From contig JAKAXN010000053.1 in assembly GCA_021816565.1 (NCBI GenBank), positions 1 to 18,795 of the forward strand: 18,795 nucleotides of DNA. Direction: 5' to 3'. Both the position numbers and the translations under genes were made by a program. Source of the stretch: Actinomycetes bacterium. Lineage in GTDB: Bacteria; Actinomycetota; Acidimicrobiia; Acidimicrobiales; Palsa-688. Positions 1,000 to 17,298 of this stretch are shown here, piece after piece. Each line of letters opens with the position of its first letter. Position 1 is the first letter of the stretch. The notes below the pieces were generated by a model that saw only the letters and a program-made list of their open reading frames with translations, was not told where the DNA came from and did not search any database.

Positions 1000-1002
1000 G
1001 CC

Positions 1003-1013
1003 AGGATCCTCCG
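1003..1013. promoter_or_regulatory. Overlapping Shine-Dalgarno sites of menD and menH
   Basis: The 14 bp between the two divergent start codons contain the palindrome AGGATCCT (1003-1010) followed by CCG. Read on the plus strand it gives AGGA 7 nt before the menH ATG. Read on the minus strand it gives GGAGGA 7 nt before the menD ATG. Both ribosome binding sites thus use the same base pairs. There is no room for promoters here, so each promoter must lie in the other gene's 5' coding sequence. Confidence 0.65.
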
Positions 1014-1781: not shown

Positions 1782-1787
1782 GGGCGC

Positions 1788-2657: not shown

Positions 2658-2664
2658 CGGTTGG

Positions 2665-2671
2665 CAAACTA
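2665..2671. promoter_or_regulatory. Superimposed divergent -10 elements of menA and menE
   Basis: On the minus strand TAGTTT (2671-2666) matches the actinobacterial -10 consensus TAnnnT and ends 8 nt before the menA GTG. On the plus strand CAAACT (2665-2670), one mismatch from TAnnnT, ends 7 nt before the menE GTG at 2678. Neither start has a good Shine-Dalgarno, so both messages may be leaderless. The menE half is the weaker call. Confidence 0.45.
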
Positions 2672-2677
2672 CCTGTC

Positions 2678-3805
2678 GTGCCGGAACTGGTGGCAATCGA
2701 TCTCCCGGGGGGCGAGCCGTTCGTGGACGCCCTGCGGCGGGTGTGGGACGACGGCGACGCGGCTCTGCCGGTGGACCAGCGGCTCCCACCCGCCGCCCGG
2801 GCCGTCCTCTTCGACGCTCTCGGGCCGGCCCGGGTGGTGGGCCCCGACGGCTGCCGGGCCCTCCAGGGGGGCCGCCCGGTCGAGCCGGGCGACGCCCTGG
2901 TTATGGCGACCAGCGGCACGACCGGCGCCCCCAAGGGAGTGGTGCTGACCCACGACGCGGTGGCGGCGTCGGCCCGGGCCACCTCCGCCCGTCTCGGCGT
3001 GGATCCCGGCCGGCACCGCTGGCTGGCCTGCCTGCCCCTCAGCCACGTCGGGGGCCTGTCGGTGGTCACCCGAAGCCTCTGCACCGGCACCCGGTGCGAC
3101 GTGCTGCCGGGTTTCGACGCCGAGGCGGTGAGGGCCCTCTCCGGCCCCGAGGTGATGGTCTCGCTGGTGGCCACCGCCCTGCAGCGCACCCCGGCCGACC
3201 TTTTCCGAACCGTGGTCCTCGGCGGGTCGGCCCCCCCGGCGGAGCTCGCGTCGAACGTGGTCACGACCTACGGGCTCACCGAGACCGGCAGCGGCGTGGT
3301 CTACGACGGGTTGCCGCTCGAGGGGGTGGAGGTCGACGTGGACGGGGCCAGCGGGGAGATCCGCCTGCGCGGTCCCATGCTGCTGCGCTGCTACCGGGAC
3401 GGCACCGTTCCCCTCGACCCCGACGGCTGGTTCGCCACCGGGGACGTGGGCGGCTTCGACGGCGACGGCCGGCTGACCGTCCACGGCCGGGTGACCGACA
3501 TGATCATCTCCGGGGGCGAGAACATCTGGCCGGCGCCGGTCGAGGAGGTCCTGCGCAGCCACCCGGGGGTGGCCGAGGTGGCTGTCGCCGGCCGTCCCGA
3601 CCCCGAGTGGGGGCAGCGGGTCGTGGCCTGGGTGGTCCCCGCCGACCCCGCCCGCCCGCCCCGGCTGGAGGAGCTGAGGGACCTGGTGGGTGAGCGGCTG
3701 GCCCGCTTCGCCGCGCCCCGGCAACTGGTCATCGCGTCGAGCCTGCCGCGGACGTCGATCGGCAAGATCCGCCGGGAGGAGCTGACGGTGCCCGAGCCGG
3801 GTTGA
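2678..3805 (+). CDS. menE: MenE, o-succinylbenzoate--CoA ligase
   Basis: MenE is an ANL-superfamily ligase that activates o-succinylbenzoate as an adenylate and then forms its CoA thioester. The 375-residue form shows the phosphate-binding loop [12 protein letters not shown] (76-87), the adenine motif YGLTETGSG (198-206), the hinge region GWFATGDVG (250-258) with [14 protein letters not shown] (272-285), and the C-terminal catalytic Lys, K363, in [12 protein letters not shown] prefer GTG 2678 because [12 protein letters not shown] is a natural N-terminus and avoids overlapping menA. An in-frame ATG at 2636 would add 14 residues and overlap menA by 22 bp. It is short for an ANL enzyme but normal for actinobacterial MenE. 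The aldo/keto reductase follows 26 bp downstream. Confidence 0.92.
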
Positions 3806-3818
3806 CCGGTCCGGCCGG

Positions 3819-3824
3819 TAGGTT
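3819..3824 (+). promoter_or_regulatory. -10 element TAGGTT of the aldo/keto reductase gene
   Basis: TAGGTT matches TAnnnT and ends 7 nt before the ATG at 3832. No Shine-Dalgarno is present, so transcription probably starts at or next to the start codon (leaderless). The same hexamer in the same position precedes the gene at 15268. Confidence 0.55.
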
Positions 3825-3831
3825 GACCCCT

Positions 3832-4809
3832 ATGGACATGCCCTACCGAAGCCTGGGCCGCTCCGGCCTGCAGGTGAGCGTTCTGTCGTTCGGATCCTGG
3901 GTGACCTTCGGGCCCCAGCTCGCCGGCTCGGGGGCGGCCGAGTGCCTCGACGCCGCCCGCTCCGCGGGCGTCAACTTCTTCGACAACGCAGAGGCCTACG
4001 CCGGGGGTGAGTCCGAGCGCATCATGGGTGAGGCCATCCGGGAGCTGGGCTGGCCCCGCCACTCCTACGTGGTGTCCACCAAGCTGTTCTGGGGCCTCCA
4101 CGACGGGCCCAACATGAAGAACACGCTCAACCGCAAGTACCTGCGCCAGGCCATCGAAGCCAGCCTGGAGCGCTTCGGGCTGGACTTCGTCGACCTGGTG
4201 TTCTGCCACCGCAACGACCCCGACACCCCCCTCGAGGAGACGGTGTGGACCATGTCGGACATGGTCGAGCGGGGCCAGGCCCTCTACTGGGGGACCTCGG
4301 AGTGGCCGGCCGACGAGATCCGCGCCGCGTGGGAGATCGCCGAGCGCCACCACCTGCACAAGCCGGTCATGGAGCAGCCGCAGTACAACCTGCTCAGCCG
4401 GCGGCGGGTGGAGCGGGAGTACGCCCGCCTCTACGACGACATCGGGCTGGGCCTCACCACATGGAGCCCGCTGGCGTCGGGCCTGCTCACCGGCAAGTAC
4501 GCCGACGGCATCCCGGAGGGCAGCCGGGCCGCCCTCCCCGGTTACGAATGGCTCCAGCAGAGCCTCACGGACCGCAAGGCCAACGAGGCGGTGGCCGAGC
4601 TGTCCGCGGTGGCTGCGGATCTGGGCTGCACCCCGGGGCAGCTGGCCATCGCCTGGTGCGCCCGCAACCCCCACGTCTCGACCGTGATCACCGGAGCCAG
4701 CCGGATCGAACAGGTCCGGGAGAACATGGACGCCGTCGAGGTCCTGGCCGCTCTCGACGACGAGGTCTGCGAGCGCCTCGACCGGGCCTTCAAGCCGGTC
4801 GCCCGCTGA
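3832..4809 (+). CDS. Aldo/keto reductase, potassium-channel-beta-like family
   Basis: This 325-residue NADP-dependent (beta/alpha)8 oxidoreductase resembles the Kv-beta/AKR6 and YghZ groups, judging from the opening [21 protein letters not shown]. The AKR catalytic tetrad is present: D51 and Y56 in [12 protein letters not shown]84 in VVSTKLFWG, and H126 in DLVFCHRND. The C-terminal cofactor-binding segment [16 protein letters not shown] is also intact. The substrate cannot be read from the sequence; carbonyl detoxification is the usual role. The ATG at 3832 is chosen because it begins the family motif and follows TAGGTT by 7 nt. A TTG at 3802 overlapping the menE stop is less likely. Its position just after menE may be incidental. 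Confidence 0.9.
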
Positions 4810-4867
4810 GCGGGACGGCGGGCTGACCACCCGGCGCCCCAACTCCCGTCTGCAACAGGTTCTGGTC

Positions 4868-4873
4868 TAGGGT
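4868..4873 (+). promoter_or_regulatory. Candidate -10 element TAGGGT upstream of the alcohol dehydrogenase
   Basis: TAGGGT fits TAnnnT and would give a leader of about 40 nt ending in the GGAGG Shine-Dalgarno at 4912-4916. No convincing -35 is visible. Confidence 0.35.
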
Positions 4874-4920
4874 CTGGGCCGATCCGACGAAGTCCGATGC
4901 ACCTGAGCACGGGAGGGACA

Positions 4921-6033
4921 GTGCAGACCGAAGCCGCAATATGTTGGGGCCTGAACGAGAAGTGGAGCGTCGAGCCCATAGAGCTGGACCCGCCCAAGGA
5001 GGGCGAGGTCCTGGTCAAGCTGGCCGCCTCCGGAATGTGCCACTCCGACGAGCACCTGGTGACGGGTGACCTGGGCGGGATCTTCCCCATCATCGGCGGC
5101 CACGAGGGCGCCGGCGTGGTGCAGGAGGTCGGTCCCGGCGTCAGCAACCTGAAGCCCGGGGACCACGTGGTGTTCGGCTTCGTGCCGGCCTGCGGTCACT
5201 GCCCGTCGTGCGCCCAGGGCCACTCCAACCTCTGCGACAACGGCGCGGCCCTGCTCATGGGCCTGCAGCTCGACGGGACGTCGCGTCACCACGCCCGCGG
5301 CCAGGACATCAACACCATGGTGTGCCTCGGCACCTTCGGCAAGTACACCGTCGTCAACCAGATGTCGTGCGTGAAGATCCTCGATGACATCCCGCTGGAG
5401 CTGGCCTGCCTGGTCGGCTGCGGCGTCACCACCGGGTGGGGCTCCTCGGTCTACGCGGCCGATATCAAGCCCGGCGACAACGTGGCCGTGATCGGTGTGG
5501 GCGGCATCGGGGCGGCGGCCATCCAAGGCGCCCGCCTGGCCGGCGCCGAGCGGATCTTCGCCATCGACCCGGTGCAGCTGAAGCGGGAGCTGGCCCCCAA
5601 GTTCGGGGCCACCCACACCTACTCCTCGGTCGAGGAGGCCACGGAGCTGATCCGGGCCGAGACGTGGGGAACCATGTGCCAGAAGGTGATCTGCGCCATG
5701 GGCGTGGGCCAGGGCTCGATGATGGCCTCGATCATGGGGATCACGGCCAAGCACGGCCGGGTGGTGGTCACCAACATCCACCCCATGGCGGAGATGGACG
5801 TCACCCTCAACCTGTGCGACCTGACCCTCATGGAGAAGCAGATCGTCGGCACGATCTTCGGCTCGGCCAACATCCACTACGACATCCCGCACCTGCTGCA
5901 CCTCTACCGGCTGGGCCAGCTGGACCTCGAGGGGATGGTCACCAACCGCTACAAGCTCGGCGACATCAACCAGGGCTACCAGGACATGCGCGACGGCAAG
6001 AACATCCGCGGGGTTCTCATCTACGACGACTGA
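4921..6033 (+). CDS. Zinc-dependent alcohol dehydrogenase, NDMA-dependent (mycofactocin-associated) family
   Basis: This is a medium-chain dehydrogenase/reductase of 370 residues. Catalytic zinc ligands are C40 (GMCHSDEH), H61 (GGHEGAG) and C167 (LVGCGVTTGWG). The structural zinc lobe is C91, C94, C97 and C105. The Rossmann motif GVGGIG is at 192-197. The phrases CHSDEHLVTGDL, CDNGAALL and the ending GYQDMRDGKNIRGV are those of the NDMA-dependent group (TIGR03989-type). Members of that group hold NAD tightly and are recycled through the peptide cofactor mycofactocin rather than free NAD. I chose GTG 4921, with GGAGG 4 nt upstream, because MQTEAAICWG is the usual family start; an ATG at 4897 is the alternative. 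No mycofactocin biosynthesis gene lies in the window. It is co-transcribed with the next gene. Confidence 0.9.
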   Translation: MQTEAAICWGLNEKWSVEPIELDPPKEGEVLVKLAASGMCHSDEHLVTGDLGGIFPIIGGHEGAGVVQEVGPGVSNLKPGDHVVFGFVPACGHCPSCAQGHSNLCDNGAALLMGLQLDGTSRHHARGQDINTMVCLGTFGKYTVVNQMSCVKILDDIPLELACLVGCGVTTGWGSSVYAADIKPGDNVAVIGVGGIGAAAIQGARLAGAERIFAIDPVQLKRELAPKFGATHTYSSVEEATELIRAETWGTMCQKVICAMGVGQGSMMASIMGITAKHGRVVVTNIHPMAEMDVTLNLCDLTLMEKQIVGTIFGSANIHYDIPHLLHLYRLGQLDLEGMVTNRYKLGDINQGYQDMRDGKNIRGVLIYDD

Positions 6034-6034
6034 C

Positions 6035-6865
6035 GTGCTCTCCTTTACCAGGGACAGCCTGGTATTCGACGTGTCCGATGACGGCCCGGCCGACGGCCGG
6101 GCCGTCATCGCGCTGCACGGCTTCCCGGAGGACCGGCACTGCTGGGGTCCTCTGGCAGCCCGGCTCACCCGGGCCGGATACCGGGTGCTGGCGCCCGACC
6201 AGCGCGGGTACTCACCCGGCGCCCGGCCGGCCGGCCGGCGCTCTTACAGCATCGACAAGCTGAGCGGCGACGTCCTGGCTCTGGCCGACTCCGCTGGTGT
6301 GGACCGCTTCGACGTGATCGGCCACGACTGGGGCGCGGTGGTGGCGTGGGACCTGGCCGGCCGGCACCCGGACCGGGTGCGGACCCTGACCGCCCTGTCG
6401 GTACCCCATCCCGGGGCCGTGCGCGACGCCGCCCTGCGCAGCAGCCAGCTGCTGCGGTCGTGGTACATGCTGGCGTTCCAGGTGCCCGCCCTGCCGGAGC
6501 TGGCCCTGCGCCTGGCCGGTCCCCGGAGGGCCGCCGCCGGCCTCGAGCGCGACGGCCTGGACGGGCCCACCGCCCGCCGCTACGCCGAGCGGATGGCCTC
6601 CTCCGCGGAGATGACCCCGCGCATCAACTGGTACCGGGCCCTGCCGTTCGGGCTCGGGGACCCGCTGCCGGCGGTGCGGGTACCGACGCTCTACGCCTGG
6701 GGCGACGGCGACCACTACCTGAGCCGCTACTCGGCGGAGCGGTGTGGCCACTACGTCGAGGCCCGCTACCGCTTCGAGGTGCTGCCGGGCGCGTCGCACT
6801 GGCTGCCCACCGCTGCGGCGGAGCGGGTGGGGCCGCTCCTGCTCGAGCACCTGGCGGCCGGATAA
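6035..6865 (+). CDS. Epoxide-hydrolase-like alpha/beta hydrolase
   Basis: This 276-residue alpha/beta hydrolase has features of soluble epoxide hydrolases. They are the oxyanion motif HGFPE (28-32), nucleophile D98 in GHDWGAVVAW, lid tyrosines Y144 (SWYMLAFQVP) and Y200 (INWYRALP) that could protonate the epoxide oxygen, acid D224 or D226 in WGDGDHYLS, and H255 in GASHWLP. An Asp nucleophile with two lid Tyr favours epoxide hydrolase over haloalkane dehalogenase, which has Trp halide ligands. The GTG start lies 1 nt after the dehydrogenase stop, so the two are translationally coupled. This suggests successive steps on the same xenobiotic or hydrocarbon-derived substrate (inference). Confidence 0.85.
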   Translation: MLSFTRDSLVFDVSDDGPADGRAVIALHGFPEDRHCWGPLAARLTRAGYRVLAPDQRGYSPGARPAGRRSYSIDKLSGDVLALADSAGVDRFDVIGHDWGAVVAWDLAGRHPDRVRTLTALSVPHPGAVRDAALRSSQLLRSWYMLAFQVPALPELALRLAGPRRAAAGLERDGLDGPTARRYAERMASSAEMTPRINWYRALPFGLGDPLPAVRVPTLYAWGDGDHYLSRYSAERCGHYVEARYRFEVLPGASHWLPTAAAERVGPLLLEHLAAG

Positions 6866-6897
6866 GGGCGGCGCCGCCGGGCGGCCGGAGGCGGGAA

Positions 6898-6911
6898 GGG
6901 ACCAAAGTCCC
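6898..6911 (+). promoter_or_regulatory. DosR/DevR-type operator upstream of the universal stress gene
   Basis: GGGACCAAAGTCCC is a 5-4-5 inverted repeat (GGGAC-CAAA-GTCCC). It matches the core of the mycobacterial DosR box GGGACTWWAGTCCC at 13 of 14 positions. It lies in the 82-bp gap before the stress-protein ATG, centred about 43 bp upstream of that ATG. A further GTCCC at 6917-6921 repeats the right half-site one helical turn downstream. In mycobacteria DosR boxes control several universal stress protein genes under hypoxia or NO. Confidence 0.65.
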
Positions 6912-6947
6912 TGATGGTCCCGGCCCCGGTACGCCCAGGATGGGGCC

Positions 6948-7400
6948 ATGACAAATGGTCGAAACCCCCAGGATGCGTCGGGGCGGAGCGGGGTCATCGT
7001 CGTCGGGGTGGACGGCTCCGAGTCCTCCCGTAAGGCGCTGCGCTGGGCCGCCCGGCAGGCCCAGATGACCGGGGCCGAGATCGCGGCCGTCATGTCGTGG
7101 GAGGTCCCCACGGCGGTCTACTGGGTTCCCTACCCGGAGGGTCTCGACCTGGAAGCCAACGCCCGCAAGCTGCTGGCAGCCACGGTCGAGGAGACCCTCG
7201 GGCCGGACCCGGTCGTGGCGGTGACCCAGACCGTCGTGCAGGGCCACCCGGCGCCGTCGCTGGTGGACGCGTCGGGCCGGGCCGACCTGCTCGTGGTCGG
7301 CAGCCGGGGCCACGGGGAGTTCACCGGAATGCTGCTGGGCTCGGTCAGCGAGCACTGCGTGGCCCGGGCCCACTGCCCGGTGGTGGTGGTGCGGAGCTGA
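6948..7400 (+). CDS. Universal stress protein (UspA family)
   Basis: This is a single-domain UspA protein of 150 residues. The N-terminal strand VIVVGVDGSESS carries D22. The ATP-binding signature G-x2-G-x9-G-S/T is complete: G118, G121, G131 and S132 in VGSRGHGEFTGMLLGS. It is therefore predicted to bind ATP, like Rv2623-type Usps. The ATG is preceded by AGGA at 6937-6940, 7 nt away. A DosR-type box upstream implies induction under low oxygen or redox stress. It converges on the PAS protein gene, with 12 bp between stops. Confidence 0.93.
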   Translation: MTNGRNPQDASGRSGVIVVGVDGSESSRKALRWAARQAQMTGAEIAAVMSWEVPTAVYWVPYPEGLDLEANARKLLAATVEETLGPDPVVAVTQTVVQGHPAPSLVDASGRADLLVVGSRGHGEFTGMLLGSVSEHCVARAHCPVVVVRS

Positions 7401-7412
7401 CACCCCGGCCGC

Positions 7413-8135
7413 TCAGCGCCCGAGCGGGTCGCAGCCGTCCGGGTCGGCGTCGGGCAGCAGTCCGGCGAAGACCGTGTGGCGGATCTCCCGGATGACGGTG
7501 TCGAGCTGGTCGACGCTCTCGCTGAGGCGCTCCGAGACCGGCTGATCGGTCAGGTTGAGCACCGACTGGATCTTCATGCCGGCCAGGAAGAGCCTCTTGA
7601 CGATCCGGTCGTTGAGTTCAGCGGCGATGCGCTCGTCCTCCTGGACCGCCACCCGCCGCCGCAGTTCGGCCTCCCGCTCGGGGCCGTGGGACCCGTGGCG
7701 GACGACGGCGATGGTCGCCGAGCGGCCGCCCAGGCTCACCGGCGACAGGCTGATGTCGACCGGTACCGCCCTGCCGTCGGACCGGCGGGCCGCCAGGGCC
7801 CGGCCCCGGCCCATGGGGCGGGGCTGCGGGGCGGCCCGGTACCCCCGGCGGTGGGAGGTGTGCGCCGACCTCAGGTACTCCGGCACCAGCGCCTCCACCG
7901 GGAGCCCGACCAGATCGTCGCGGGTGTAGCCGAAGATCCCCGAGGCAGCGGGGTTGGCGAAGGTGACCACTCCCTCCGAGTCCACGATCAGGATCCCGTC
8001 GGGGGCCAACTCGACGATGGTCGTGGCCAGATCCGACGACGGCCGGGGCCCCTCGGAGCCGGCCGCTGCGGAAGTGGCGGAACGGGAAAGGGTGGCTCCC
8101 CCGCCCCCAGCCTTCGAGACGTGCTCGACTCTCAT
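7413..8135 (-). CDS. PAS protein with degenerate DosS-like DHp domain, no ATPase domain
   Basis: This 240-residue soluble protein has a disordered N-terminus, a PAS domain (about 36-148: LAPDGILIVDSEGVVTFANPA, GYTRDDLVG) and then a HisKA_3-like dimerisation helix pair (about 160-227). The segment DERIAAELNDRIVKRLFLAG followed by IREIRHTVF matches the DosS/DosT/NarX-type consensus, in which ERIARDLHD carries the phosphoacceptor His. Here that His is Asn (N175). The HATPase domain is absent: the stop falls just after the second helix and a convergent gene begins 12 bp later. It can neither bind ATP through that domain nor autophosphorylate. It may sense through PAS and act by dimerising with, or decoying, a real kinase (inference). 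The ATG follows AAGGGG by 4 nt. Confidence 0.85.
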   Translation of the reverse strand: MRVEHVSKAGGGGATLSRSATSAAAGSEGPRPSSDLATTIVELAPDGILIVDSEGVVTFANPAASGIFGYTRDDLVGLPVEALVPEYLRSAHTSHRRGYRAAPQPRPMGRGRALAARRSDGRAVPVDISLSPVSLGGRSATIAVVRHGSHGPEREAELRRRVAVQEDERIAAELNDRIVKRLFLAGMKIQSVLNLTDQPVSERLSESVDQLDTVIREIRHTVFAGLLPDADPDGCDPLGR

Positions 8136-8228
8136 TGAACCCCTTCTGCCAGACGTTCTCTTCCGATGTGGCCGCCGGGGTCACGGGAGGCGTAGCAGGA
8201 GCCGGGGTCAGGGGCTTCCCTGCCCATG

Positions 8229-8257
8229 ATGCTAAAGGGCCGAACGGCCCGGGACAA
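8229..8257 (-). promoter_or_regulatory. Promoter of the PAS/DHp gene with a palindrome filling the spacer
   Basis: On the minus strand TTGTCC (complement of 8252-8257) and TAGCAT (complement of 8229-8234) are separated by exactly 17 bp, a good sigma70-type promoter. The spacer holds a 14-bp 5-4-5 inverted repeat at 8237-8250 (GGGCC-GTTC-GGCCC on the minus strand). That is the architecture expected of an operator. The leader would be about 85-90 nt. The same repeat could form a small hairpin followed by TTTA and act as a weak terminator for the upstream PAS-ANTAR gene. Confidence 0.5.
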
Positions 8258-8307
8258 GGGGTTGACCGCTCCGGATCGGGTCGGGGGCCCGGGTCCGGGC
8301 CGCTTCG

Positions 8308-9291
8308 TCAGATCTGCAGGCCCAGGTTGACCACCGCGGCGGCCACGTCATGGATGCGGGCGTTGTGGGACCGGCTGTGCTGGCGCAACATCTCGAAGGC
8401 CTGGTCGACGCCCACCCCGTGCCGCTCCGCCACGATGCCCTTGGCCTGCTCGATCACCACCCTGGTGGTCAGGGCGGTCTGGAGCTGCTCGGTGAGCCGG
8501 ACCAGCTGCTCCCGGTCGTGATGGCGGTCGGTCACGTCCCGCAGGTTGCACACCACGTAGCGGGCGGACGGGTCGTCGAGCATGTTGGTGACCACCAGCT
8601 CGGCCCAGGCCCACCCGCTCGGGAAGCGGGCCACCCGGCACTCCGCCGGGGAGGCCCCGTTGCCGGCTCCGACGGCTCGTCGGTACAGGTCCTGGCACGC
8701 GGCCACGTCGTCGGGGTGCAGCAACTCCCAGAAGGACCGGCCGAGGACCTTCTCCTCGGTCCAGCCGAAAAGGACCGCTCCGGCCGGGCTGACCAGCGTC
8801 ACCCGGTCGTCGCGGGTGAGTATGAGCGCGGCATCCGAAGAGCGCTGGAGCAGGGGCCACACCGCCTGGCCCAGCTCCACCGACACGCCCACGATGCCGG
8901 CCGGCACCCCGGACCGGTCCCGTATGGCGGTGTCTGTCACCAGGGCCGGGAAGGTGGAGCCGTCCTTGCGCCGCACCGTGAACGCCCCCGACCAGCTTCC
9001 GCCGGCCTGCAGGGTGTCCATGATCTCCGTGGCCAGGGCCCGGTTGATCTGCGGCACTGCGACGTCGGCTATGTTGCGCCCGACGACCTCGGCTGCGCTC
9101 CAGCCGTAGAGAGCCTCGGCTGCGGTGTTCCAGTAGTGCACCACCCCGGGCATGTCGGTGGCGATGATCGCGTGGCCGACGTGCTGAAGGAGCGATCGGG
9201 CCTCGAGCCACTCCCCGACCGGACCGCCCGGACCCCGGCCACCGTCCCCGTTGCGTCCGGCGGGGTACTCATCAGCGTTGCCTCTCTCCAC
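8308..9291 (-). CDS. PAS-PAS-ANTAR regulator (putative transcription antiterminator)
   Basis: This is a 327-residue cytosolic protein. PAS 1 spans about 32-140 (LLQHVGHAIIATD, YWNTAAEALYGWS, AEVVGRNI). PAS 2 spans about 147-256 (LLQRSSDAALILTRDDRV, FGWTEEKVLGRSFWELLHPDD). The ANTAR domain (about 268-324) contains TRVVIEQAKGIVAERHGV and AFEMLRQHSRSHNARIHDVAAAVV, the hallmark RNA-binding helix bundle that stabilises antiterminator stem-loops. PAS input suggests a redox, light or small-ligand signal. The frame is open up to 9540, but GTG 9291 is favoured by an AGGGAG Shine-Dalgarno 5 nt upstream and because the extra 83 residues look random and Arg-rich. It is followed by the PAS/DHp gene and preceded, 221 bp away, by the response regulator. 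Confidence 0.88.
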   Translation of the reverse strand: MERGNADEYPAGRNGDGGRGPGGPVGEWLEARSLLQHVGHAIIATDMPGVVHYWNTAAEALYGWSAAEVVGRNIADVAVPQINRALATEIMDTLQAGGSWSGAFTVRRKDGSTFPALVTDTAIRDRSGVPAGIVGVSVELGQAVWPLLQRSSDAALILTRDDRVTLVSPAGAVLFGWTEEKVLGRSFWELLHPDDVAACQDLYRRAVGAGNGASPAECRVARFPSGWAWAELVVTNMLDDPSARYVVCNLRDVTDRHHDREQLVRLTEQLQTALTTRVVIEQAKGIVAERHGVGVDQAFEMLRQHSRSHNARIHDVAAAVVNLGLQI

Positions 9292-9512
9292 GCTGTCTCC
9301 CTGGGGGCCGCATCGCTTCCTGGCGCACCCTCTTCGCACAGTAGCCCTACGCAACGAGGCGCGCCCCTGCCGACGGGCCTTCTCTACCCGAAGTGGCAAT
9401 TTGCGCGGCAGCCGGAACCGGATTCGGCCCCACCTGAGGTGGAAAGTATCGCCGCAGGCATGATGGCCACCTCCCAGAACTCGGCCATGGTGCTGTCGAT
9501 GGGGCATCTTCT
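9292..9512. other. Intergenic leader of the PAS-ANTAR gene
   Basis: This 221-bp gap lies between the response-regulator stop and the PAS-ANTAR GTG, both minus strand. It holds a short palindrome CCACC-TGA-GGTGG at 9430-9442. On the minus strand TACTTT (complement of 9443-9448) is a possible -10 just before it, though no matching -35 is seen. No gene or known RNA family was recognised. Confidence 0.4.
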
Positions 9513-10211
9513 TCACCAGGGCTCCGGGTGGCTCGACCATCCGGCCCGGTTGGCCTTGCCGACCGCCTCGAGCTGACTGTTGACCCCGAGCTTCAACAGG
9601 ACGGACCGGACCTGGATACGCACGGTGGCCACCGACACGAAGGAATCGCCGGCGATGCGCTCCACCGGCTTGCCCTCCATCAGCATGCCCAGCACGACCG
9701 CCTCCCGCCTGGTCAGCTGCTCGAACGGAGCCAGGGCTGCTGCGACATCCGACTCCCGTCGGCGCCAGGCACCCACCAGCCGTTCCCGCTCCTGAAGGCT
9801 CAGGACCGGCTGACCGGCGAGGGTGGCGAGGATCGCCTCGAGCAACTCGTCGAAACCGGCGGTCTTCGGTACCGCTCCGTAGGCTCCCGCATGGATGCAG
9901 CCGCCGACCACGGCCTCATCCCGCTGCCCGGAGACGACGAGCACCCTGGTACCGGCACCGGTCAGGACGGGCAGTAGCTCCTCGCCGCGGCCGAACGGGC
10001 CGAGGTCCAGGTCCAGCAGGGCCACCGACGGCCGGGTGGTCGATAGCACGTGGGCCACATCGCCGAGATCGGTGAGGGCAGGCGCCACCACCACCTATCC
10101 CTCGGCCTGGAGCGCCGCCGTGAGCGAGATCCTCAGCAGCCGGTGATCATCGACGACCGCCACCACCGGCGGGAGCAGATCGGCCCCGCCCGGGCCTCTC
10201 CGGCCCGTCAT
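9513..10211 (-). pseudogene. NarL/DosR-family response regulator interrupted by one in-frame TAG
   Basis: Reading from ATG 10211, 2 nt after the kinase stop, gives MTGRRGPGGADLLPPVVAVV then DDHRLLRISLTAALQAEG. A TAG follows at codon 39 (complement of 10095-10097), and then the same frame continues VVVAPALTDLGDV to a normal end at 9513. The receiver landmarks are all present: D21-D22, phosphoacceptor D67 in LLDLD, Ser in VVSGQ and Lys in VPKT. The D21-to-D67 distance of 46, counting the TAG as a residue, equals that in NarL and DosR, so nothing else is inserted or lost. The C-terminus is an intact LuxR helix-turn-helix (LTRREAVVLGML to VNSQLEAV). Either this is a fresh nonsense mutation (GAG to TAG is one base), readthrough occurs, or GAGGGA before TAGGTGGTG restarts a 193-residue product from 10094. 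Confidence 0.85.
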
Positions 10212-10213
10212 CG

Positions 10214-11842
10214 TCACCGCTCGACCTTCTCCCCGGTGCGGGACGGTCCCGCGGACCACCGCAGCGACCGGCCGAAGGCCCGCGTCCCGGAGGTCGCCGC
10301 AGGCAGCCCTGCCGGGATGGCGAAACGGCCGGCACCGGGTTCCGGGTGCCGTCGGAGGGCGGCCGGCAGATCCAGCACGAAGCAGGCCCCTCCCCCGGCC
10401 GCCTCCTCCACGTACAGCGCCCCGCCCATTTCCGTCGCCAGGCGGCGGGCGCCGTACAGACCCAGCCCACTCCCCGGCTGCCGGGCCGCCGTGCTTCCCC
10501 GGAAGCCCCTCCCGAAGATGGCATCGCGCTCATCGGCGGGAACTCCGGGACCGTGATCGACGACGCGGACCTCCACCCGGTCGGAGCGCCGGCGGCCCAC
10601 GATGCGGACCGGCGATCCCGGGGCGTAGCGGCGGGCGTTGGCCAGGAGGTTCTGGAGCACCTGGCCCAGAGCACCGCGGTCCCCGCACGCGCACAGGCCG
10701 CCCAGGTCCACGCGGACGTCCATGCCCGCGGCCCTGGCGGTGGCCACCACCGGCCCGAAAGCCTCCCCGAGGAGCTGGGGTGCCCGGCCCACCGCGGGGT
10801 GGGGCTCGATCAGCGCCTGGAGCCGGGACAGCTCGGAGCTGACCGCGTCGGCGAGCCGGGCCCTCGTCACCTCGTCGAGTCGGCCGGCGTGGCGACGCAG
10901 GGTGGCGTCGGCCAGGCGGACGCCCGCCACCGCGTTGCGCAGGTCGTGCAGCTGCTCGTCCAGCCCGGCCCTCTCCGCCTGCAGCTCCTGATGCAGCCGG
11001 CTCGCCACCGAGCGCAGGTCGAGGCTGTAGCGCTCCTGACCCCTCAGGGTCCAGCGCAGCTCCCATACTCCCGCGGTCAGACCCAGGGACGCCCCCGCCA
11101 GGTACCCCCCGCTCATCAGGACGGAGCTGATCCATCCGATGCCGAGGGCCGCAGCCAGGACCTGCGCCAGGCCCATGACCAGGAGGACGCCGGCCAGCCA
11201 GACACCGACCGCCGGGTTGCGGCGGCGGGTCACCAGAGCCAGCAAGGCCAGGACCAGCCACGTCAGCCCGGCGCCGGCCCGGGTGACCGCCACGGTCGCC
11301 GGGCCGGCGCCGTTCCAGCCGGTGACCACACCGAGCAGGACCAGCGAGAACAGCCCCACCGGAACGCTGACCACCACGGCATGGAGCGGCTTCAGATGGG
11401 CTTCGACCTCAGCGGATCCGAGGGCGGCCAGGATCGGGACGGCGGCGAACAGTGCGGGAATCAGCCGGCCGTACGGGTTGGCGAGCGGCGACGCCCCGGT
11501 GGTCAGGGCGTCCAGCCGGCTGTACGCCAGAGTGAGGACGCCCATGTCGACCAGCCCGATGCCCAACCACCCCGGAGCGGCCCGTCCCCCGACCTTCCAG
11601 GAGATGATGAGCGTCCCACCAGCGGCGACGAAGCCCATACCGGCCAACGACTGCCACACGGCGGCAACGGCCGGGAGACCGGCCTCCGATCGCCACACCA
11701 GGACGGTCGGCACCATAACCCCGACCAGGATGAGGCCGGAGTGCCTGACCATCTCGGTGAGCGGTACGGCCGGTGGCCGCTCCACCCTCTTCCGCCTGTC
11801 CGGGCCGCGGTAACGGCCCTGGGTACGACAAATCCGCATCAC
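10214..11842 (-). CDS. Membrane sensor histidine kinase
   Basis: This 542-residue kinase has about eight hydrophobic segments in residues 35-260 and no large extracellular loop, suggesting sensing in or near the membrane. A DHp helix follows with H299 in EQLHDLRNAVAGVRLAD, then a HATPase domain: N-box N402 in QNLLANARRYAPG, G1 box DHGPGVP (429-435), F-box IFGRGFRG and G2 box GSGLGLYGARRL (457-468). All catalytic elements appear intact. The roughly 45-residue C-terminal tail is Arg/Pro-rich and featureless. GTG 11842 (or ATG 11839) follows AGGGG in the complement of 11848-11852. The response regulator begins 2 nt after its stop, so the two form a cognate pair. Pairing an HDLRN-type DHp with a NarL-class regulator is less common than with HisKA_3 kinases. 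Confidence 0.9.
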   Translation of the reverse strand: MMRICRTQGRYRGPDRRKRVERPPAVPLTEMVRHSGLILVGVMVPTVLVWRSEAGLPAVAAVWQSLAGMGFVAAGGTLIISWKVGGRAAPGWLGIGLVDMGVLTLAYSRLDALTTGASPLANPYGRLIPALFAAVPILAALGSAEVEAHLKPLHAVVVSVPVGLFSLVLLGVVTGWNGAGPATVAVTRAGAGLTWLVLALLALVTRRRNPAVGVWLAGVLLVMGLAQVLAAALGIGWISSVLMSGGYLAGASLGLTAGVWELRWTLRGQERYSLDLRSVASRLHQELQAERAGLDEQLHDLRNAVAGVRLADATLRRHAGRLDEVTRARLADAVSSELSRLQALIEPHPAVGRAPQLLGEAFGPVVATARAAGMDVRVDLGGLCACGDRGALGQVLQNLLANARRYAPGSPVRIVGRRRSDRVEVRVVDHGPGVPADERDAIFGRGFRGSTAARQPGSGLGLYGARRLATEMGGALYVEEAAGGGACFVLDLPAALRRHPEPGAGRFAIPAGLPAATSGTRAFGRSLRWSAGPSRTGEKVER

Positions 11843-11859
11843 GCCTGCCCCTACGTCCG

Positions 11860-11896
11860 CTCGGGTCCAACCTAGCGACGGACCCGAGCCGGGTCC
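11860..11896 (-). promoter_or_regulatory. Kinase promoter with interlocking inverted repeats
   Basis: The minus-strand -10 TAGGTT (complement of 11869-11874) lies 26 nt before the kinase GTG, leaving a short leader with a Shine-Dalgarno. It is framed by a perfect 9-bp inverted repeat (CTCGGGTCC at 11860-11868, GGACCCGAG at 11880-11888). The right arm also belongs to a second perfect palindrome, GGACCCG-AGC-CGGGTCC (11880-11896). Three alternating GGGTCC half-sites thus cover the -10 and the region upstream of it, which suggests autoregulation or an activator. Confidence 0.5.
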
Positions 11897-12006
11897 TAGG
11901 GTCGTTTCCTAAAATTTCGAACAACCGGAGGAAGTCCGCAGCCCGGCGAAACACCCGTACGTCGCCAAATCGGCACAACAGCGCCGAGCAGCGACCGGCA
12001 GGCGCT
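11897..12006. other. Intergenic stretch with an AT-rich patch
   Basis: This lies between the lipoprotein stop and the kinase promoter. It contains an unusually AT-rich patch at about 11905-11925, including TAAAATTTCGAA, in otherwise roughly 70% GC DNA. It could be an upstream promoter element or curved DNA. No gene or terminator hairpin was recognised. Confidence 0.35.
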
Positions 12007-13038
12007 TCAGCCTCCGGAGACCCGGCGGTACTCGTAGACGGCGATTGACAACTGACAGTTGCCCGGTGGGAGAACCTCCACCCGGAGCGTCCCGCTGCCG
12101 CGGTCGTAGTCGATGCCCTCGACCTCATACGATCCCGGGCAGTCGCTGACCTGCGGCAGCTCGCCCAGCGACGTGACGTGACCAACCTCGGCGGCCCCGT
12201 CCAGGGGCCTGACCAGCGTTATGCGCAGGAGCTGGTCGGGGGTGGGCCAGAGGTCGGTCCCCGGGTCGGTGGACGAGCAGAGCAACTCGGTCGGGGAGTA
12301 GAACGCGCAGCCCTGCACGTCGCGTACCGGGTGGTCCAGGTTGATCGTGGCGGCCATCCCGACGACCGCCGCACGGGCCGGTACGGACCGGTTGGTGATC
12401 GGGGCCGGAAACACCAGCAGGCGGGTCATCCGGCCCCACTCCCCCGAGACCATCCACTGGCCGTCGGGGGTCACCGCCACGAAGGAGTTGTTGGGCATCT
12501 CGCCCGGATCCAGCCGGTGGACGAACTGGTAGGTCGCACCGGCCGGGGTGGTGACCTCGAACAGCTTGTGCGTGGTGGGCGGGGAGTCCTGGTAGGCGTC
12601 GAACAGGTACCCGTGCCAGCTGTCGGGGTCGCCGACGTGGCCCCATCCCTGCCGGCGGAGGGAAGGGGGAACCGACAGATCCCCGCGGAACACGATGGTC
12701 GCAGACTTCCCCGGTCGCCTGAGCGTGGCCAGCCCCTGATCGCCCAGGGCGGCCAGCACGAGGAAGCGGTTCCGGAGCTGCCAGGGCCCGAGTCGGGCGC
12801 CCACACCGTGTCGGGGAATCGTGTTCCACGGCGACGTCGGAGGGGTGGTGGCCGCCACCGCGGTGACGGGGGCCGCCGCGGCCGAGGCGGGCCGGCCCGG
12901 ACGAGCCGCCAGTGACGAAGTGCCGCAGGCTCCGGCGGCGAGGGCGACGAGCAGCGCCCCGCTCACGGCCCTGATCGCCCGGGCCGCCCGTCCGACCGAC
13001 GTCCGGCCCGGGTCCCGACGGGCCGCCGTCCGGGTCAC
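12007..13038 (-). CDS. Putative lipoprotein of unknown function
   Basis: The product is about 343 residues from GTG 13038; an adjacent GTG at 13041 would add one residue. AAGGA lies 7 nt before the 13038 codon. The N-terminus has Arg residues, a hydrophobic stretch (VSGALLVALAAGAC) and a lipobox-like AGAC whose Cys is residue 38. An Ala/Pro/Thr-rich linker follows, then a globular domain. The lipobox lacks the usual Leu at -3, so lipidation is likely but not certain. The domain has short Trp/Gly-containing segments (DGQWMVSGEWGRMTRLLVFP, QGCAFYSPTELLCSSTDPGTDLWPT) that resemble beta-propeller blades, but I do not recognise a family. Four Cys residues (in GCAF, LLCSS, SDCPG and GNCQL) could form disulfides outside the membrane. 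It is divergent from the DUF2993 gene. Confidence 0.75.
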   Translation of the reverse strand: MTRTAARRDPGRTSVGRAARAIRAVSGALLVALAAGACGTSSLAARPGRPASAAAAPVTAVAATTPPTSPWNTIPRHGVGARLGPWQLRNRFLVLAALGDQGLATLRRPGKSATIVFRGDLSVPPSLRRQGWGHVGDPDSWHGYLFDAYQDSPPTTHKLFEVTTPAGATYQFVHRLDPGEMPNNSFVAVTPDGQWMVSGEWGRMTRLLVFPAPITNRSVPARAAVVGMAATINLDHPVRDVQGCAFYSPTELLCSSTDPGTDLWPTPDQLLRITLVRPLDGAAEVGHVTSLGELPQVSDCPGSYEVEGIDYDRGSGTLRVEVLPPGNCQLSIAVYEYRRVSGG

Positions 13039-13092
13039 CACCGGTCCTTACTACCGTAAATTCGCCGTGTTGTCCTCGTCACCCCACGAGCA

Positions 13093-13788
13093 GTGAACTC
13101 CCGCAGGCGACCCCTGGCGGTGACCTGGCACCGGCTGGCCGCGGCCGCCCTGGCGTTCCTGGCGGTGGCTGCGGTGGCCGTCGTGGGGGTCGGCTGGTGG
13201 GCCCGCGGCCAGGTGGAGAGTGCGGTGGCGCAACGGATCGACCAGCAACTGCCCGGAGCTGAGGCGCAGGTCGGAATCTCCTCCTTTCCGTTCCTCGCCC
13301 ACCTCGCCGCATCCGGGACGATCTCGGAGCTGTCGGTGCACGTGGGCAATCTGCCGGCCGGGCCGCTGGCCTTCAACGGCTTCCATCTGGCTTCCCTCGA
13401 TTTCAGCGACGTGGAGCTGCACATCGACGACCTGCACATGCGGAGAGACCCACTGCTGCACCGCAGGGTCATGATCGACGGGCTCCGCCAGGCCACCGTG
13501 ACGGCCACCCTCGACGAGAGGACCCTGGACCGGAGCATCGGGCTCCCCATCACCCTGGGGAGCGGGAGCGTCGGAATAGGCGGGCTCAGCCTGCCCGCCT
13601 ACGCGGCCGTCCAGTCACGCGTGATCACGGTCACCGTCCCCGGCCAGATCACCTTCAGCCTGTCCGCCCCGCCGCTCGAGGTGCTCCCCTGCGTCGGGCG
13701 GGTGGAGATCGTCCCGGGCAGCCTGAAGCTGTCCTGCTCGGTCCACCGGCTCCCCGGTGTCCTCTCCCACACCAGCTTCAGCTACTGA
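13093..13788 (+). CDS. DUF2993-family membrane-anchored protein
   Basis: This 231-residue protein has one N-terminal transmembrane segment (about 14-36) and an exported domain. The pattern QVGISSFPFLAHLAASGTISELSVHV matches the opening of DUF2993, the family that includes mycobacterial LmeA, an envelope protein implicated in lipomannan elongation. The family is otherwise poorly understood and binds lipids. The first GTG at 13093 has no clear Shine-Dalgarno; a GTG a few codons later would still keep the membrane segment. TAAATT at 13057-13062 is a possible -10. It shares a roughly 54-bp divergent promoter region with the lipoprotein gene, so the two may be co-regulated envelope genes. Confidence 0.8.
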   Translation: MNSRRRPLAVTWHRLAAAALAFLAVAAVAVVGVGWWARGQVESAVAQRIDQQLPGAEAQVGISSFPFLAHLAASGTISELSVHVGNLPAGPLAFNGFHLASLDFSDVELHIDDLHMRRDPLLHRRVMIDGLRQATVTATLDERTLDRSIGLPITLGSGSVGIGGLSLPAYAAVQSRVITVTVPGQITFSLSAPPLEVLPCVGRVEIVPGSLKLSCSVHRLPGVLSHTSFSY

Positions 13789-13806
13789 CCCCGAACCGCG
13801 GACGGC

Positions 13807-13825
13807 CGGGGCCGGGCCCGCCCCG
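13807..13825 (+). terminator. Candidate terminator after the DUF2993 gene
   Basis: CGGGGC (13807-13812) and GCCCCG (13820-13825) form a 6-bp stem with a 7-nt loop, 19 nt past the stop. ATTTCATCAATTTC follows, unusually T-rich for this DNA. Confidence 0.5.
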
Positions 13826-13880
13826 ATTTCATCAATTTCGAGGATTCGCGTCGGGGAGGGTCGGGGGGACGCTGGTGCTG

Positions 13881-13998
13881 TGGCCGGACGGTACCGGCCA
13901 TGAGCGAGGCCGCGATCCACCCGACACATTGGTCGCCGCGTACGGCGGGTGGGGAGCCAGGGGCGAAACCGGCGCTCTCCTATAACGGAGGTAACTCG
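13881..13998 (+). other. Possible structured 5' leader of the TasA-like gene
   Basis: The 210-bp gap before the TasA-like gene contains consecutive hairpins: TGGCCGG/CCGGCCA (13881-13900, 6-nt loop); CCACC (13917-13921) with GGTGG (13948-13952) enclosing CGCCG-CGTA-CGGCG (13934-13947); and GAGC/GCTC (13954-13977). The last sits directly before the GGAGG ribosome site at 13987-13991. I could not match it to a known riboswitch. Confidence 0.3.
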
Positions 13999-14574
13999 AT
14001 GAAGATCAAGCAGGGACTGATCGCTCTGGTCGCCGCTGGGGGCACCGCCGGCCTGCTGTTCGGTGGCTCGGCTGTCAGCACCGCCTTCACCTCGGAGCAG
14101 TCCGGGGCTGCGACCGTGACCGCCGACCACGTGGGCCTCCAGCTCACCAGCGGCACCTTCAGCCTCGCCGGGCTCCTGCCCGGGCAGACGGTCACGGACC
14201 CCAATCCCGTCACCGTCGACCCCAGCTCGAGCAACGCGCCGACCGCGATGTATCTGCTCGGCGGCAACTGGAGCATCAACCGGGCGGGGACCTCCGGGAA
14301 CCCGAATCCGGCGGATCTGACGCTCAACATCGACATCCCATCTCTCCACTTCACCAGGAGCTACACCGAGTCGGCGTTGATGGGCCACGTGCTGCCGCTC
14401 TACTCCGGGATCCCGGCGGGGACGAAGGCCCTGACCGTGGACGTCAGCTTCACGCTGGCCCAAGCCGCCGGCAACGACTGGAACGGTGCCGAGGTCACCG
14501 TCCCCTACACCCTGCACCTGCAGGACATCGCCGGGACCGACAGCGGCGGGTACGTCGCCAACAGCAACAGCTGA
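13999..14574 (+). CDS. TasA/CalY-like secreted protein with SipW-type signal peptide
   Basis: The product is 191 residues. The N-terminus is MKIKQGLIALVAAGGTAGLL, then FGGSAVSTAFTSEQSGAATV and a short acidic/polar run into TADHVGLQL. This follows the layout of SipW-dependent signal peptides (hydrophobic core, small residues, an AYFSDTE-like segment and an FTAGTLDL-like strand). Cleavage would fall near STA-FTS. The mature part is a small beta-rich domain with LLPGQTVTD, comparable to the APGD segment of TasA/camelysin proteins, which form biofilm fibres or surface metalloproteases in Firmicutes. The family call rests on architecture and on the adjacent SipW-type peptidase rather than strong identity. 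The ATG has an excellent GGAGG Shine-Dalgarno. No Cys is present in the mature protein. Confidence 0.7.
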   Translation: MKIKQGLIALVAAGGTAGLLFGGSAVSTAFTSEQSGAATVTADHVGLQLTSGTFSLAGLLPGQTVTDPNPVTVDPSSSNAPTAMYLLGGNWSINRAGTSGNPNPADLTLNIDIPSLHFTRSYTESALMGHVLPLYSGIPAGTKALTVDVSFTLAQAAGNDWNGAEVTVPYTLHLQDIAGTDSGGYVANSNS

Positions 14575-14581
14575 CACTTCC

Positions 14582-14643
14582 GGCAGTCACCACGACTGCC
14601 ACCAGGCCGGAGCGTGGGCGGGATCGGCCCGCCCACACTCCGG
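14582..14643 (+). terminator. Tandem hairpins between the TasA-like and SipW genes (attenuator candidate)
   Basis: The first hairpin, GGCAGTC/GACTGCC (14582-14600, 5-nt loop), is a perfect 7-bp stem. The second pairs CCGGAG with CTCCGG and GTGGGCGGG with CCCGCCCAC (14607-14643). That makes 15 bp with one mismatch and a 5-nt loop, ending 5 nt before the GGAGG Shine-Dalgarno of the peptidase gene. There is no U-tract. It may be a partial terminator or RNase barrier that lowers peptidase output. Confidence 0.6.
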
Positions 14644-14658
14644 TCGACGGAGGAACCC

Positions 14659-15207
14659 ATGATCCGAAAAGCCCTCGCCGGACTCGCCGTCGCAGTCGTT
14701 GCGGCCCTCTCGGCGGTCGCCCTCTTCACCAACCACAGCTATGTGACCACCCCCTCGATGTACCCGACGATCCCCCCGGGGTCGGAGATCTTCGTCGTCC
14801 ACCGGTCCCACTACAGAGTCGGCCAGGTAATCGAGTTCAAAGCCAACGGCCTCATCTGGGCCCACCGGCTCATAGCGGTGAAGCCGAACGGCGACATGGT
14901 GACGAAGGGGGACAACCCCCTCAACTCGCCGGACGTCTTCCTTCCGCCCGTCACCGCCAAATCGGTGGTCGGTGCGGTCGAGTTCGCGCCCCGTTGGATC
15001 GGCTTCCCGGAGCTCATCCTTCACCACCCCGCTTACGGGTTGGCCTGGATGAGGGCCGAGCTCGGATTGGCCGGCAGGATCGCCATCGTCGCTGCAGTCG
15101 CCGCCCTGGCGTTCCTCGTGGCCTCCCGACGCCCGAACCAACGCCGGCTCGGCTCCAGGAGCCCGGCGGGGGAAGACCGATCGGCGGCGAATTACCTGGC
15201 TGCCTGA
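14659..15207 (+). CDS. SipW-type (S26B) signal peptidase I
   Basis: This 182-residue membrane peptidase has a transmembrane helix near residues 5-25 and another near 138-156. Nucleophile S33 is in TTPSMYPTIPPGS. H69 in GLIWAHRLI stands where bacterial-type enzymes carry Lys. The conserved acidic box is VTKGDNPLNSPD (81-92). Ser-His-Asp chemistry is that of the ER/archaeal and SipW branch of signal peptidase I, not the Ser-Lys LepB branch. ATG 14659 follows GGAGG by 5 nt; an upstream GTG at 14614 lies within the hairpin and is rejected. The neighbouring secreted protein is the likely dedicated substrate. The C-terminal 25 residues are cytosolic, Arg-rich and poorly conserved in appearance. Confidence 0.9.
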   Translation: MIRKALAGLAVAVVAALSAVALFTNHSYVTTPSMYPTIPPGSEIFVVHRSHYRVGQVIEFKANGLIWAHRLIAVKPNGDMVTKGDNPLNSPDVFLPPVTAKSVVGAVEFAPRWIGFPELILHHPAYGLAWMRAELGLAGRIAIVAAVAALAFLVASRRPNQRRLGSRSPAGEDRSAANYLAA

Positions 15208-15255
15208 TGCCCAGATGCACCGTGGCCGGCGGCCGCCCGTCGGCGTGCCGGTCGG

Positions 15256-15261
15256 TAGGTT
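15256..15261 (+). promoter_or_regulatory. -10 element TAGGTT of the YyaL-like gene
   Basis: TAGGTT ends 6 nt before the GTG at 15268, with no Shine-Dalgarno between. This is the same leaderless layout as at 3819-3824. Confidence 0.5.
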
Positions 15262-15267
15262 GGGACG

Positions 15268-17298
15268 GTGACGACCAACCGCCTCGCTCAGGAGACCAGC
15301 CCCTACCTGCGCCAGCACGCCGACAACCCGGTGGACTGGTACCCCTGGGGGCCGGAGGCGTTCGAGGCGGCGAAGACCAGGGATGTCCCCATCCTGTTGT
15401 CGGTGGGCTACTCGGCCTGCCACTGGTGCCATGTCATGGCCCACGAGTGCTTCGAGGACCGGGAGGTGGCGGCGGCCATGAACTCCGGGTTCGTCAACAT
15501 CAAGGTGGACCGGGAGGAGCGCCCCGACGTCGACAGCATCTACATGGAGGCGGTACAGGCCGTGACCGGGAGCGGGGGCTGGCCCATGACGGTGTTCCTG
15601 ATGCCCGACGGACGGCCCTTCCACGGCGGCACGTACTTCCCCAAGGGCCAGTTCCTGCCGCTGCTGGACCAGGTCGGCACCCTGTGGCGGGATCGGCGGC
15701 CCGACCTCGACGAGGCGGCCGGCCAGTTGTCGGCGGCGGTGCGGGCCGGCACCGCCCTGCCCAGCCGGAGTTGGGCGTCTTCGGGGGACGCCGGGGCGGC
15801 CCGCGCGCCCGAGCTCCTGGCCCGGGCGGCCGACTCGCTCATGCAGCGCCACGACCCGGAATGGGGCGGGTTCGGCCGGGCACCGAAGTTCCCCCAGCCG
15901 CCCGTGGTCGAGACGCTTCTCATGGCCGGAGCCGAATCCGGCCGTCCGGACGTCCTACAGGCGGTTGTCACGACCCTCGATGCCATGGCCAGCGGGGGGA
16001 TCTACGACCACCTGGGCGGGGGCTTCGCCCGCTACTCGACCGACCGGCGGTGGTTGGTCCCCCACTTCGAGAAGATGCTCTACGACAACGCCCTCCTGGC
16101 CCGCCTGTACCTGCACGCCTACCAGGCGACCGGCCTCGACCGGTACCGCCAGGTCGTGGAGGAGACTCTGGCCTACCTGCTGAGCCCGCCGATGGCCATC
16201 GAGGGGGCCGGCTTCGCGTCAGCCGAGGACGCCGACAGCGAGGGGGTGGAAGGTCGGTTCTACGTCTGGGACCGGGCGGAGGTGCTGGAGGTGGCCGGGC
16301 CGGAGGTGGCCGACTGGTACGGGGTCACCGACGCCGGCAACTGGGAGGGCCGCAACATACTGATTCGCCCCCAGCGGGGTGAGCTGGCCCGGACCGAGCC
16401 CGTCGAGGCCGGCCGGCGGGCCCTGCTCGACCGGCGCAACGGGCGGATCCGGCCCGGCCTCGACGACAAGGTTCTCACCGAGTGGAATGCCATGGCGGTG
16501 GCCGCCCTGGCCGAGGCCGGGCCGGCCATGGACCGACCGGACTGGGTGGCCGAGGCCGAGCGGGTGGCGGAGTTCCTTCTGGTTTCCCTGCGCCGGCCGG
16601 ACGGTCGCTGGCTGCGCAGCTGGCAGGCCGGCGCGGGAGCCGCCGGGGCGACCCGTCCGCTGGCCTATGCGTCGGATCATGCCTGGCTGGTGGAGGCGTT
16701 CACCCGGCTGGCCGAAGCGACAGGCCGGGCCCGGTGGATCGAGCAGGCGGTGTCGGCGGCGGAGGCCCTGCTCGACCTGTTCTGGGACGACGGGGCGGAG
16801 GCCTTCGTGACCGCCGGGCGCGACGCCGAGTCGCTGATCGCCTCGCCGGTCGACACCCACGACGGGGCGCTGCCGTCCACCAATTCGGTGGCCGCCACCG
16901 CTCTGTTGCGGCTGTCCGCGCTGACCGGCCAGGACCGCTTCGGGATCCGGGCCGAGGCGGTGGTCGACGCCATGGCCCCGGCTCTGGGGGCGGCGCCGGC
17001 GGCCTTCTCGGGGATGGTCGCCGCCGCCTCGATCATGCAGAGAGGCCTGACCGAGGTGGTGGTGTCCGGGGAGCGGCCCGACCTGGTCTCGGTGGTCACC
17101 AGCCGGTATCTGCCCGCCGCGGTGTGGGCCTGGGGGGAGCCGTTCGGATCCCCCCTGTGGGAGGGCAGGGATGAGCGGGGGGGTGACGGCCGGGCGTACG
17201 TGTGCCGGGATTATGCTTGTCACGCCCCGGTTTCGCAGCCGTCGGAGTTGGCGTCGGAACTGGAGACCATCCACCCGTCCCCACCCGCCTTTCGATAA
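15268..17298 (+). CDS. YyaL/DUF255 thioredoxin-domain protein
   Basis: This 676-residue protein belongs to the YyaL / spermatogenesis-associated protein 20 family. The N-terminal DUF255 thioredoxin-like domain opens with NRLAQETSPYLRQHADNPVD. It carries the CxxC pair C51-C54 in YSACHWCHVM and the block KVDREERPDVDSIYMEAVQA. The rest is an (alpha/alpha)-barrel-like region similar to glycosidase or N-acylglucosamine epimerase folds (FEKMLYDNALLARLYL; FASAEDADSEG; VLTEWNAMAVAALAEAG). The biochemical function of the family is not established; a redox or sugar-related role is only suggested by the folds. The length is normal and no frame disruption is seen. It probably forms a separate leaderless transcription unit, followed 12 bp later by the next gene. 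Confidence 0.93.
   Translation: MTTNRLAQETSPYLRQHADNPVDWYPWGPEAFEAAKTRDVPILLSVGYSACHWCHVMAHECFEDREVAAAMNSGFVNIKVDREERPDVDSIYMEAVQAVTGSGGWPMTVFLMPDGRPFHGGTYFPKGQFLPLLDQVGTLWRDRRPDLDEAAGQLSAAVRAGTALPSRSWASSGDAGAARAPELLARAADSLMQRHDPEWGGFGRAPKFPQPPVVETLLMAGAESGRPDVLQAVVTTLDAMASGGIYDHLGGGFARYSTDRRWLVPHFEKMLYDNALLARLYLHAYQATGLDRYRQVVEETLAYLLSPPMAIEGAGFASAEDADSEGVEGRFYVWDRAEVLEVAGPEVADWYGVTDAGNWEGRNILIRPQRGELARTEPVEAGRRALLDRRNGRIRPGLDDKVLTEWNAMAVAALAEAGPAMDRPDWVAEAERVAEFLLVSLRRPDGRWLRSWQAGAGAAGATRPLAYASDHAWLVEAFTRLAEATGRARWIEQAVSAAEALLDLFWDDGAEAFVTAGRDAESLIASPVDTHDGALPSTNSVAATALLRLSALTGQDRFGIRAEAVVDAMAPALGAAPAAFSGMVAAASIMQRGLTEVVVSGERPDLVSVVTSRYLPAAVWAWGEPFGSPLWEGRDERGGDGRAYVCRDYACHAPVSQPSELASELETIHPSPPAFR

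Follow-up and report, generated by a model that had tools for sequence, protein, structure and literature searches.

The window, by which we mean the whole 18,795-base stretch of DNA analysed here (72% GC), carries on its minus strand a NarL/FixJ-type response regulator gene, running by sequence and translation from an ATG at 10211-10209 to a TGA at 9515-9513, in which codon 39 is a single in-frame TAG (10097-10095). This is probably a genuine, recent nonsense allele of a well-kept regulator, a pseudogene in the making that perhaps retains a leaky re-start. The frame is open on both sides of the stop, the neighbouring kinase gene is intact, homologues elsewhere are intact and no accelerated change is seen. 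We infer a real and recent mutation, with most of the function lost. Such a stop is an everyday kind of event and not a new system. The features around it are the following.

10214..11842, minus strand: intact histidine kinase, the upstream partner (HATPase_c at 85.7 bits; 85% identical to P0126 over its full length; derived changes 16 versus 24)
10098..10211, minus strand: regulator codons 1-38, with beta1, alpha1, D21 and D22 (translation and homologue alignment; no Pfam match alone)
10098..10103, minus strand: GAGGGA, Shine-Dalgarno-like, which also encodes part of a conserved Glu-Gly (sequence)
10095..10097, minus strand: in-frame TAG, codon 39 (sequence)
10086..10094, minus strand: GTGGTGGTG, possible restart codons (sequence; P0001 starts at the second GTG)
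9513..10094, minus strand: frame after the TAG, 193 codons, with the remaining receiver (D67, S94, K116) and a GerE DNA-binding domain (Pfam, alignment and leave-one-out conservation)
8308..9291, minus strand: next gene, a PAS-PAS-ANTAR protein with a proposed GTG start (Pfam; start chosen by eye)

The preliminary description of this DNA had the regulator ATG coupled to the kinase stop, and sequence and translation confirm it: the kinase TGA (10216-10214) is followed after 2 nt by the ATG at 10211-10209. An in-frame GTG at 10217 also overlaps the kinase TGA. As described there, D21 and D22 precede the TAG and D67 follows it at a spacing of 46. S94 and K116 also lie after the stop, so that all of these residues are present in the DNA, on both sides of the TAG. 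We take D21 and D22 to be the acidic pair, D67 the phosphoacceptor Asp, S94 the Ser/Thr and K116 the Lys of a receiver. The frame past the TAG stays open for 193 codons, to 9513. It matches the GerE (LuxR-type) DNA-binding domain PF00196 above the cut-off (E 1.3e-11), and its match to the receiver profile PF00072 (E 2.7e-6, 28 bits) is below the cut-off of 30.2 and covers profile positions 27 to 110 only. No Pfam match was found in the first 38 residues. With PF00072 matched from position 27 and below its cut-off, no one protein holds a complete receiver domain; the in-frame stop removes an essential part of the regulator, as in a pseudogene.

We compared the interrupted gene with 119 homologues, which are the 120 listed of 499 matches minus P0001. 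The TAG occupies exactly one column of the alignment and the sequence on either side of it keeps the same register, which rules out a frameshift, in agreement with the earlier reading. In all 119 this column is filled by an amino acid (F 23, C 22, Y 20, L 20, H 12, I 7, V 6, M 5, A 3 and K 1). None of the 119 has Glu there, and the nearest among the matches listed, P0002 to P0005, have Tyr; the proposed origin from GAG by a one-base change is therefore unsupported. P0002, at 85% identity the nearest intact homologue among the matches listed, matches VraR (1.4e-15), DevR of the DevR/DosR type (8e-12) and NarL (3.4e-11) over both the receiver and the DNA-binding domain. The regulator of the window differs from VraR, DevR/DosR and NarL in the stop between its acidic pair and the remainder. 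In a model of intact P0002 (mean pLDDT 95.0), the TAG column falls just before beta2 (residues 40-42).

A comparison of the codon in relatives thus gives a sense codon in the intact homologues, and the P0001 protein hints at the same stop. No stop at codon 39 was found in any homologue whose DNA was read; P0001, seen as protein only, suggests its presence in a near-identical strain. The scan of genome contigs with the regulator returned four loci at 30-39% identity. In 32 genomes of the family of genome G563, eight had a match at E <=1e-38 (nine matches, none with an in-frame stop), the best at 57% identity. A sample of 397 genomes from the order of G563 contained no regulator closer than 57%; eleven of these genomes had a match at 1e-42, giving 13 matches, one of them with an in-frame TAG (genome G445). 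In a sample of 396 genomes from the phylum, no in-frame stop was present in 21 matches at 1e-30. The regulator gene had no match in a plasmid collection, and window positions 8000-12000 matched three Rhodococcus records there over only 1-5%, in the ANTAR part.

We then looked for decay, polarising changes between the window and P0002 with P0003-P0005 as outgroups. After the stop, 30 of 192 sites differ, of which six are derived in the window and 12 in P0002, the others being unpolarised; with 18 outgroups the derived changes number three and five. Before the stop, five of 37 sites differ, three derived in the window and none in P0002. The kinase differs from P0126 at 80 of 540 sites, with 16 changes derived in the window and 24 in P0126, and hence shows no excess in the window. 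A leave-one-out analysis considered two sets of columns: 80 with conservation of 85% or more among the 25 nearest homologues, and 38 with conservation of 95% or more across the 119 listed. In the former, the window departs at three and P0001 at five (homologue median three, maximum 12); in the latter, the window departs at none and P0001 at one. GC3 stands at 0.87 in the first piece, 0.86 in the second and 0.89 in the kinase. Decay is not measurable in either piece of the regulator, and the numbers of derived changes (6 vs 12) and of conserved columns lost (3/80) show no relaxed selection since the break.

Considering that neither piece shows decay, the stop looks recent, at least on the scale of the split between the window and P0002, or else its products may still be in use. 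A very recent break would leave no trace of relaxed selection. Two of the six changes derived in the window, R65G and T160I (numbered after the stop), affect columns with about 90% conservation among the nearest 25 homologues, and the single difference of P0001 from the window also falls on a conserved column, which might point to a stop of greater age. Undecayed pieces would also be compatible with readthrough or with a functional restart product.

The two undecayed pieces are also what would be expected if the TAG had arisen by error in sequencing or assembly, or came from a minority strain whose variant the assembler chose, with the gene of the organism itself intact. The 38-residue fragment before the stop was found in the contig of the window only, which again agrees with an error. 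Against this stands P0001, a metagenome protein of 192 residues from another contig (1393 bases, ENA), which is 99% identical with one residue different and starts exactly at the second GTG, as though the stop were present. Of the 120 homologues listed, no other lacks the TAG column. The simplest reading, with P0001 known here from its protein alone, suggests that its contig has the same stop, and hints at recurrence in near-identical strains. A contig that began between codons 18 and 41, with no earlier start codon left, would yield the same protein. Every one of 50 proteins listed as ENA-only starts with M, so this source may force a start codon; P0043, among these 50, is also from NCBI, and P0226, outside the list, is likewise not among the proteins that start otherwise. 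A lone substitution is moreover an uncommon kind of consensus error. We regard an error as unlikely.

On the preferred reading, a very recent nonsense mutation in an Acidimicrobiales-like host, translation coupled from the kinase would yield a 38-residue fragment and then stop. The kinase would thereby be deprived of its cognate phosphorylatable regulator, and leaky re-initiation might still give some 192-residue product from the second GTG. The anatomy around the TAG allows such a re-start. GAGGGA (10103-10098) stands before GTGGTGGTG (10094-10086), as first described; GAGGG lies 7 nt upstream of the second GTG, which begins 3 nt past the TAG. The 193 open codons reported earlier are present, and the predicted product size of 193 residues differs from the 192 that the best-spaced restart, the second GTG, would give.

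This arrangement, together with the conservation of the part after the stop and a DNA-binding domain modelled with high confidence, could also point to functional termination-reinitiation, in which a 192-residue, phosphorylation-independent DNA-binding protein without the acid pocket is made. We find this quite unlikely. An intact gene already codes for such a context: the residues EG-Y-VVV are shared by intact P0002, and GAG-GGN also occurs in the homologues of L014, L033 and L037, all without a stop. With Glu-Gly and Val-Val-Val already encoded in P0002 and GAG-GGN in homologues, nothing had to evolve, and the re-start context (GAGGG, GTGGTGGTG) was probably inherited. The undrifted first 38 codons speak against a long-standing restart-only life, and among the 120 listed homologues the truncated form is seen only in the 99%-identical P0001. 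In a model of the restart product the DNA-binding domain has a mean pLDDT of 93.5, there is no beta1 or alpha1, and beta2 does not form; AlphaFold judges truncated domains poorly. Lacking beta1-alpha1 and the acidic pair, the 192-residue product cannot be a normal receiver.

A variant that we hold to be decidedly improbable is a one-step uncoupling, in which the ribosome arriving from the kinase would re-initiate on the pre-existing GAGGG and GTGGTGGTG and a constitutive DNA-binding form would be maintained in the population, where P0001 would represent a second allele. If the restart product were functional, it would show that regulation can pass from phosphorylation-dependent to constitutive in a single step. 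As a recent nonsense allele, the gene is one more young case in a two-component system, caught with its frame broken at a time when both pieces, like the kinase, are still free of decay. Of the possibilities left by the preliminary description (re-initiation, readthrough, a recent pseudogene or an assembly error), the recent pseudogene fits best; the re-start context looks inherited.

Whether TAG ends other genes, a point also raised there, has a divided answer. None of the 16 hand-listed genes of the window ends in TAG, yet relatives use it: TAG ends 28 of 172 mechanically picked ORFs (9/84 in G445, 11/55 in G563 and 8/33 in G515) and, in loci L038-L048, 17 of 64 such ORFs; the two sets overlap, as L048 is in both and L047 overlaps the G563 set. 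TAG is plainly an ordinary stop in related genomes. The sole TAG-ended mechanical pick in the window (4-483) overlaps the 1-999 frame on the opposite strand and was dropped. By hand calculation, the chance of 0/16 is about 6% at 28/172 and about 0.7% at 17/64. The lack of TAG ends among the window genes is a weak, unexplained and slightly odd observation. That the TAG is read through or is a sense codon, giving a full-length regulator, would agree with these counts, with the conservation of both pieces in one register and with the in-frame TAG in the G445 homologue, and is nonetheless hardly credible, since relatives end many ORFs in TAG, the TAG with the longest open continuation in G445 is by eye the end of a kinase-like gene, and the search of the window for a tRNA, and so for the suppressor that had been suggested, found none.

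Broken copies were also seen in two relatives. In L044 (G631:C56:1-7000), at about 430-1066, a regulator homologue (55%) follows the end of a kinase and is frameshifted; an assembly error is possible. The match covers residues 72-226 only, the frame shifting after LLDLDLGP. In L065 (G445:C31:94753-98397), a homologue 42% identical to P0002 lies downstream of a kinase and has its TAG inside the DNA-binding domain; past it the frame goes on to encode conserved sequence. Both sites are elsewhere than codon 39, and the three broken copies are a lead and not a rate, assembly errors being possible. By eye, G631 and G445 have the kinase before the regulator, as in the window; the order is reversed in G563, G636, G635 and the G633:C246 copy. 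In G604 the regulator is intact and a kinase precedes it by about 0.8 kb.

In-frame stops are widespread in bacterial genes and mostly short-lived, with dN/dS below 1 and fairly high, according to the accessible part of Belinky et al. (PMC7918605). The window resembles the cases presented in that part in having a single nonsense codon, with the frame conserved on both sides, that is probably short-lived; unlike the stops on which it focuses, common to orthologues of at least two species, no shared stop was found here. Pseudo-receivers are defined, in the available text of PMC12632262, by the lack of one or more of five active-site residues, and 18 of the 20 pseudo-receivers or atypical response regulators described in that text are orphans. 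The restart product would be like them in lacking the acidic pair needed for phosphorylation, and its model also lacks beta1, alpha1 and beta2. It would differ from those described there in that beta1-alpha1 itself is missing, rather than residues being replaced in a whole domain, and in that its gene, unlike the mostly orphan pseudo-receivers of that text, adjoins a kinase gene.

The kinase homologues P0130, P0136, P0139 and P0163 are labelled Acidimicrobiales bacterium. The absence of a regulator beside the kinase P0126 in the protein database was not interpreted, as the source and contig columns may describe the cluster representative only. At the start of the window lie four further frames.

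1-999, minus strand: partial frame, which we take from its motifs to be MenD-like
987-1781, plus strand: alpha/beta-hydrolase-like frame
1788-2789, minus strand: UbiA prenyltransferase
2636-3805, plus strand: AMP-binding enzyme

We presume that these genes (1-3805) belong to a menaquinone synthesis cluster. A DsbH-like protein (15268-17298) is 74% identical in G563 and 72% in G515, among 248 genomes from the order of genome G275. By these relationships and the labels of the kinase homologues, the window looks like Acidimicrobiales DNA. In the window (3805-15268), 11.5 kb separate the AMP-binding gene from the DsbH-like gene, against about 2.6 kb in G515 (L048), which places the kinase-regulator pair within a stretch absent from G515 at that place. 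Finally, 7413-8135 on the minus strand encodes a PAS domain with a weak, below-cut-off HisKA_3 match and no ATPase domain. Open frames of 230-247 residues matching most of this protein occur in G620 (two), G628 and G629, and short kinase-like proteins of this type may be a recurring kind.
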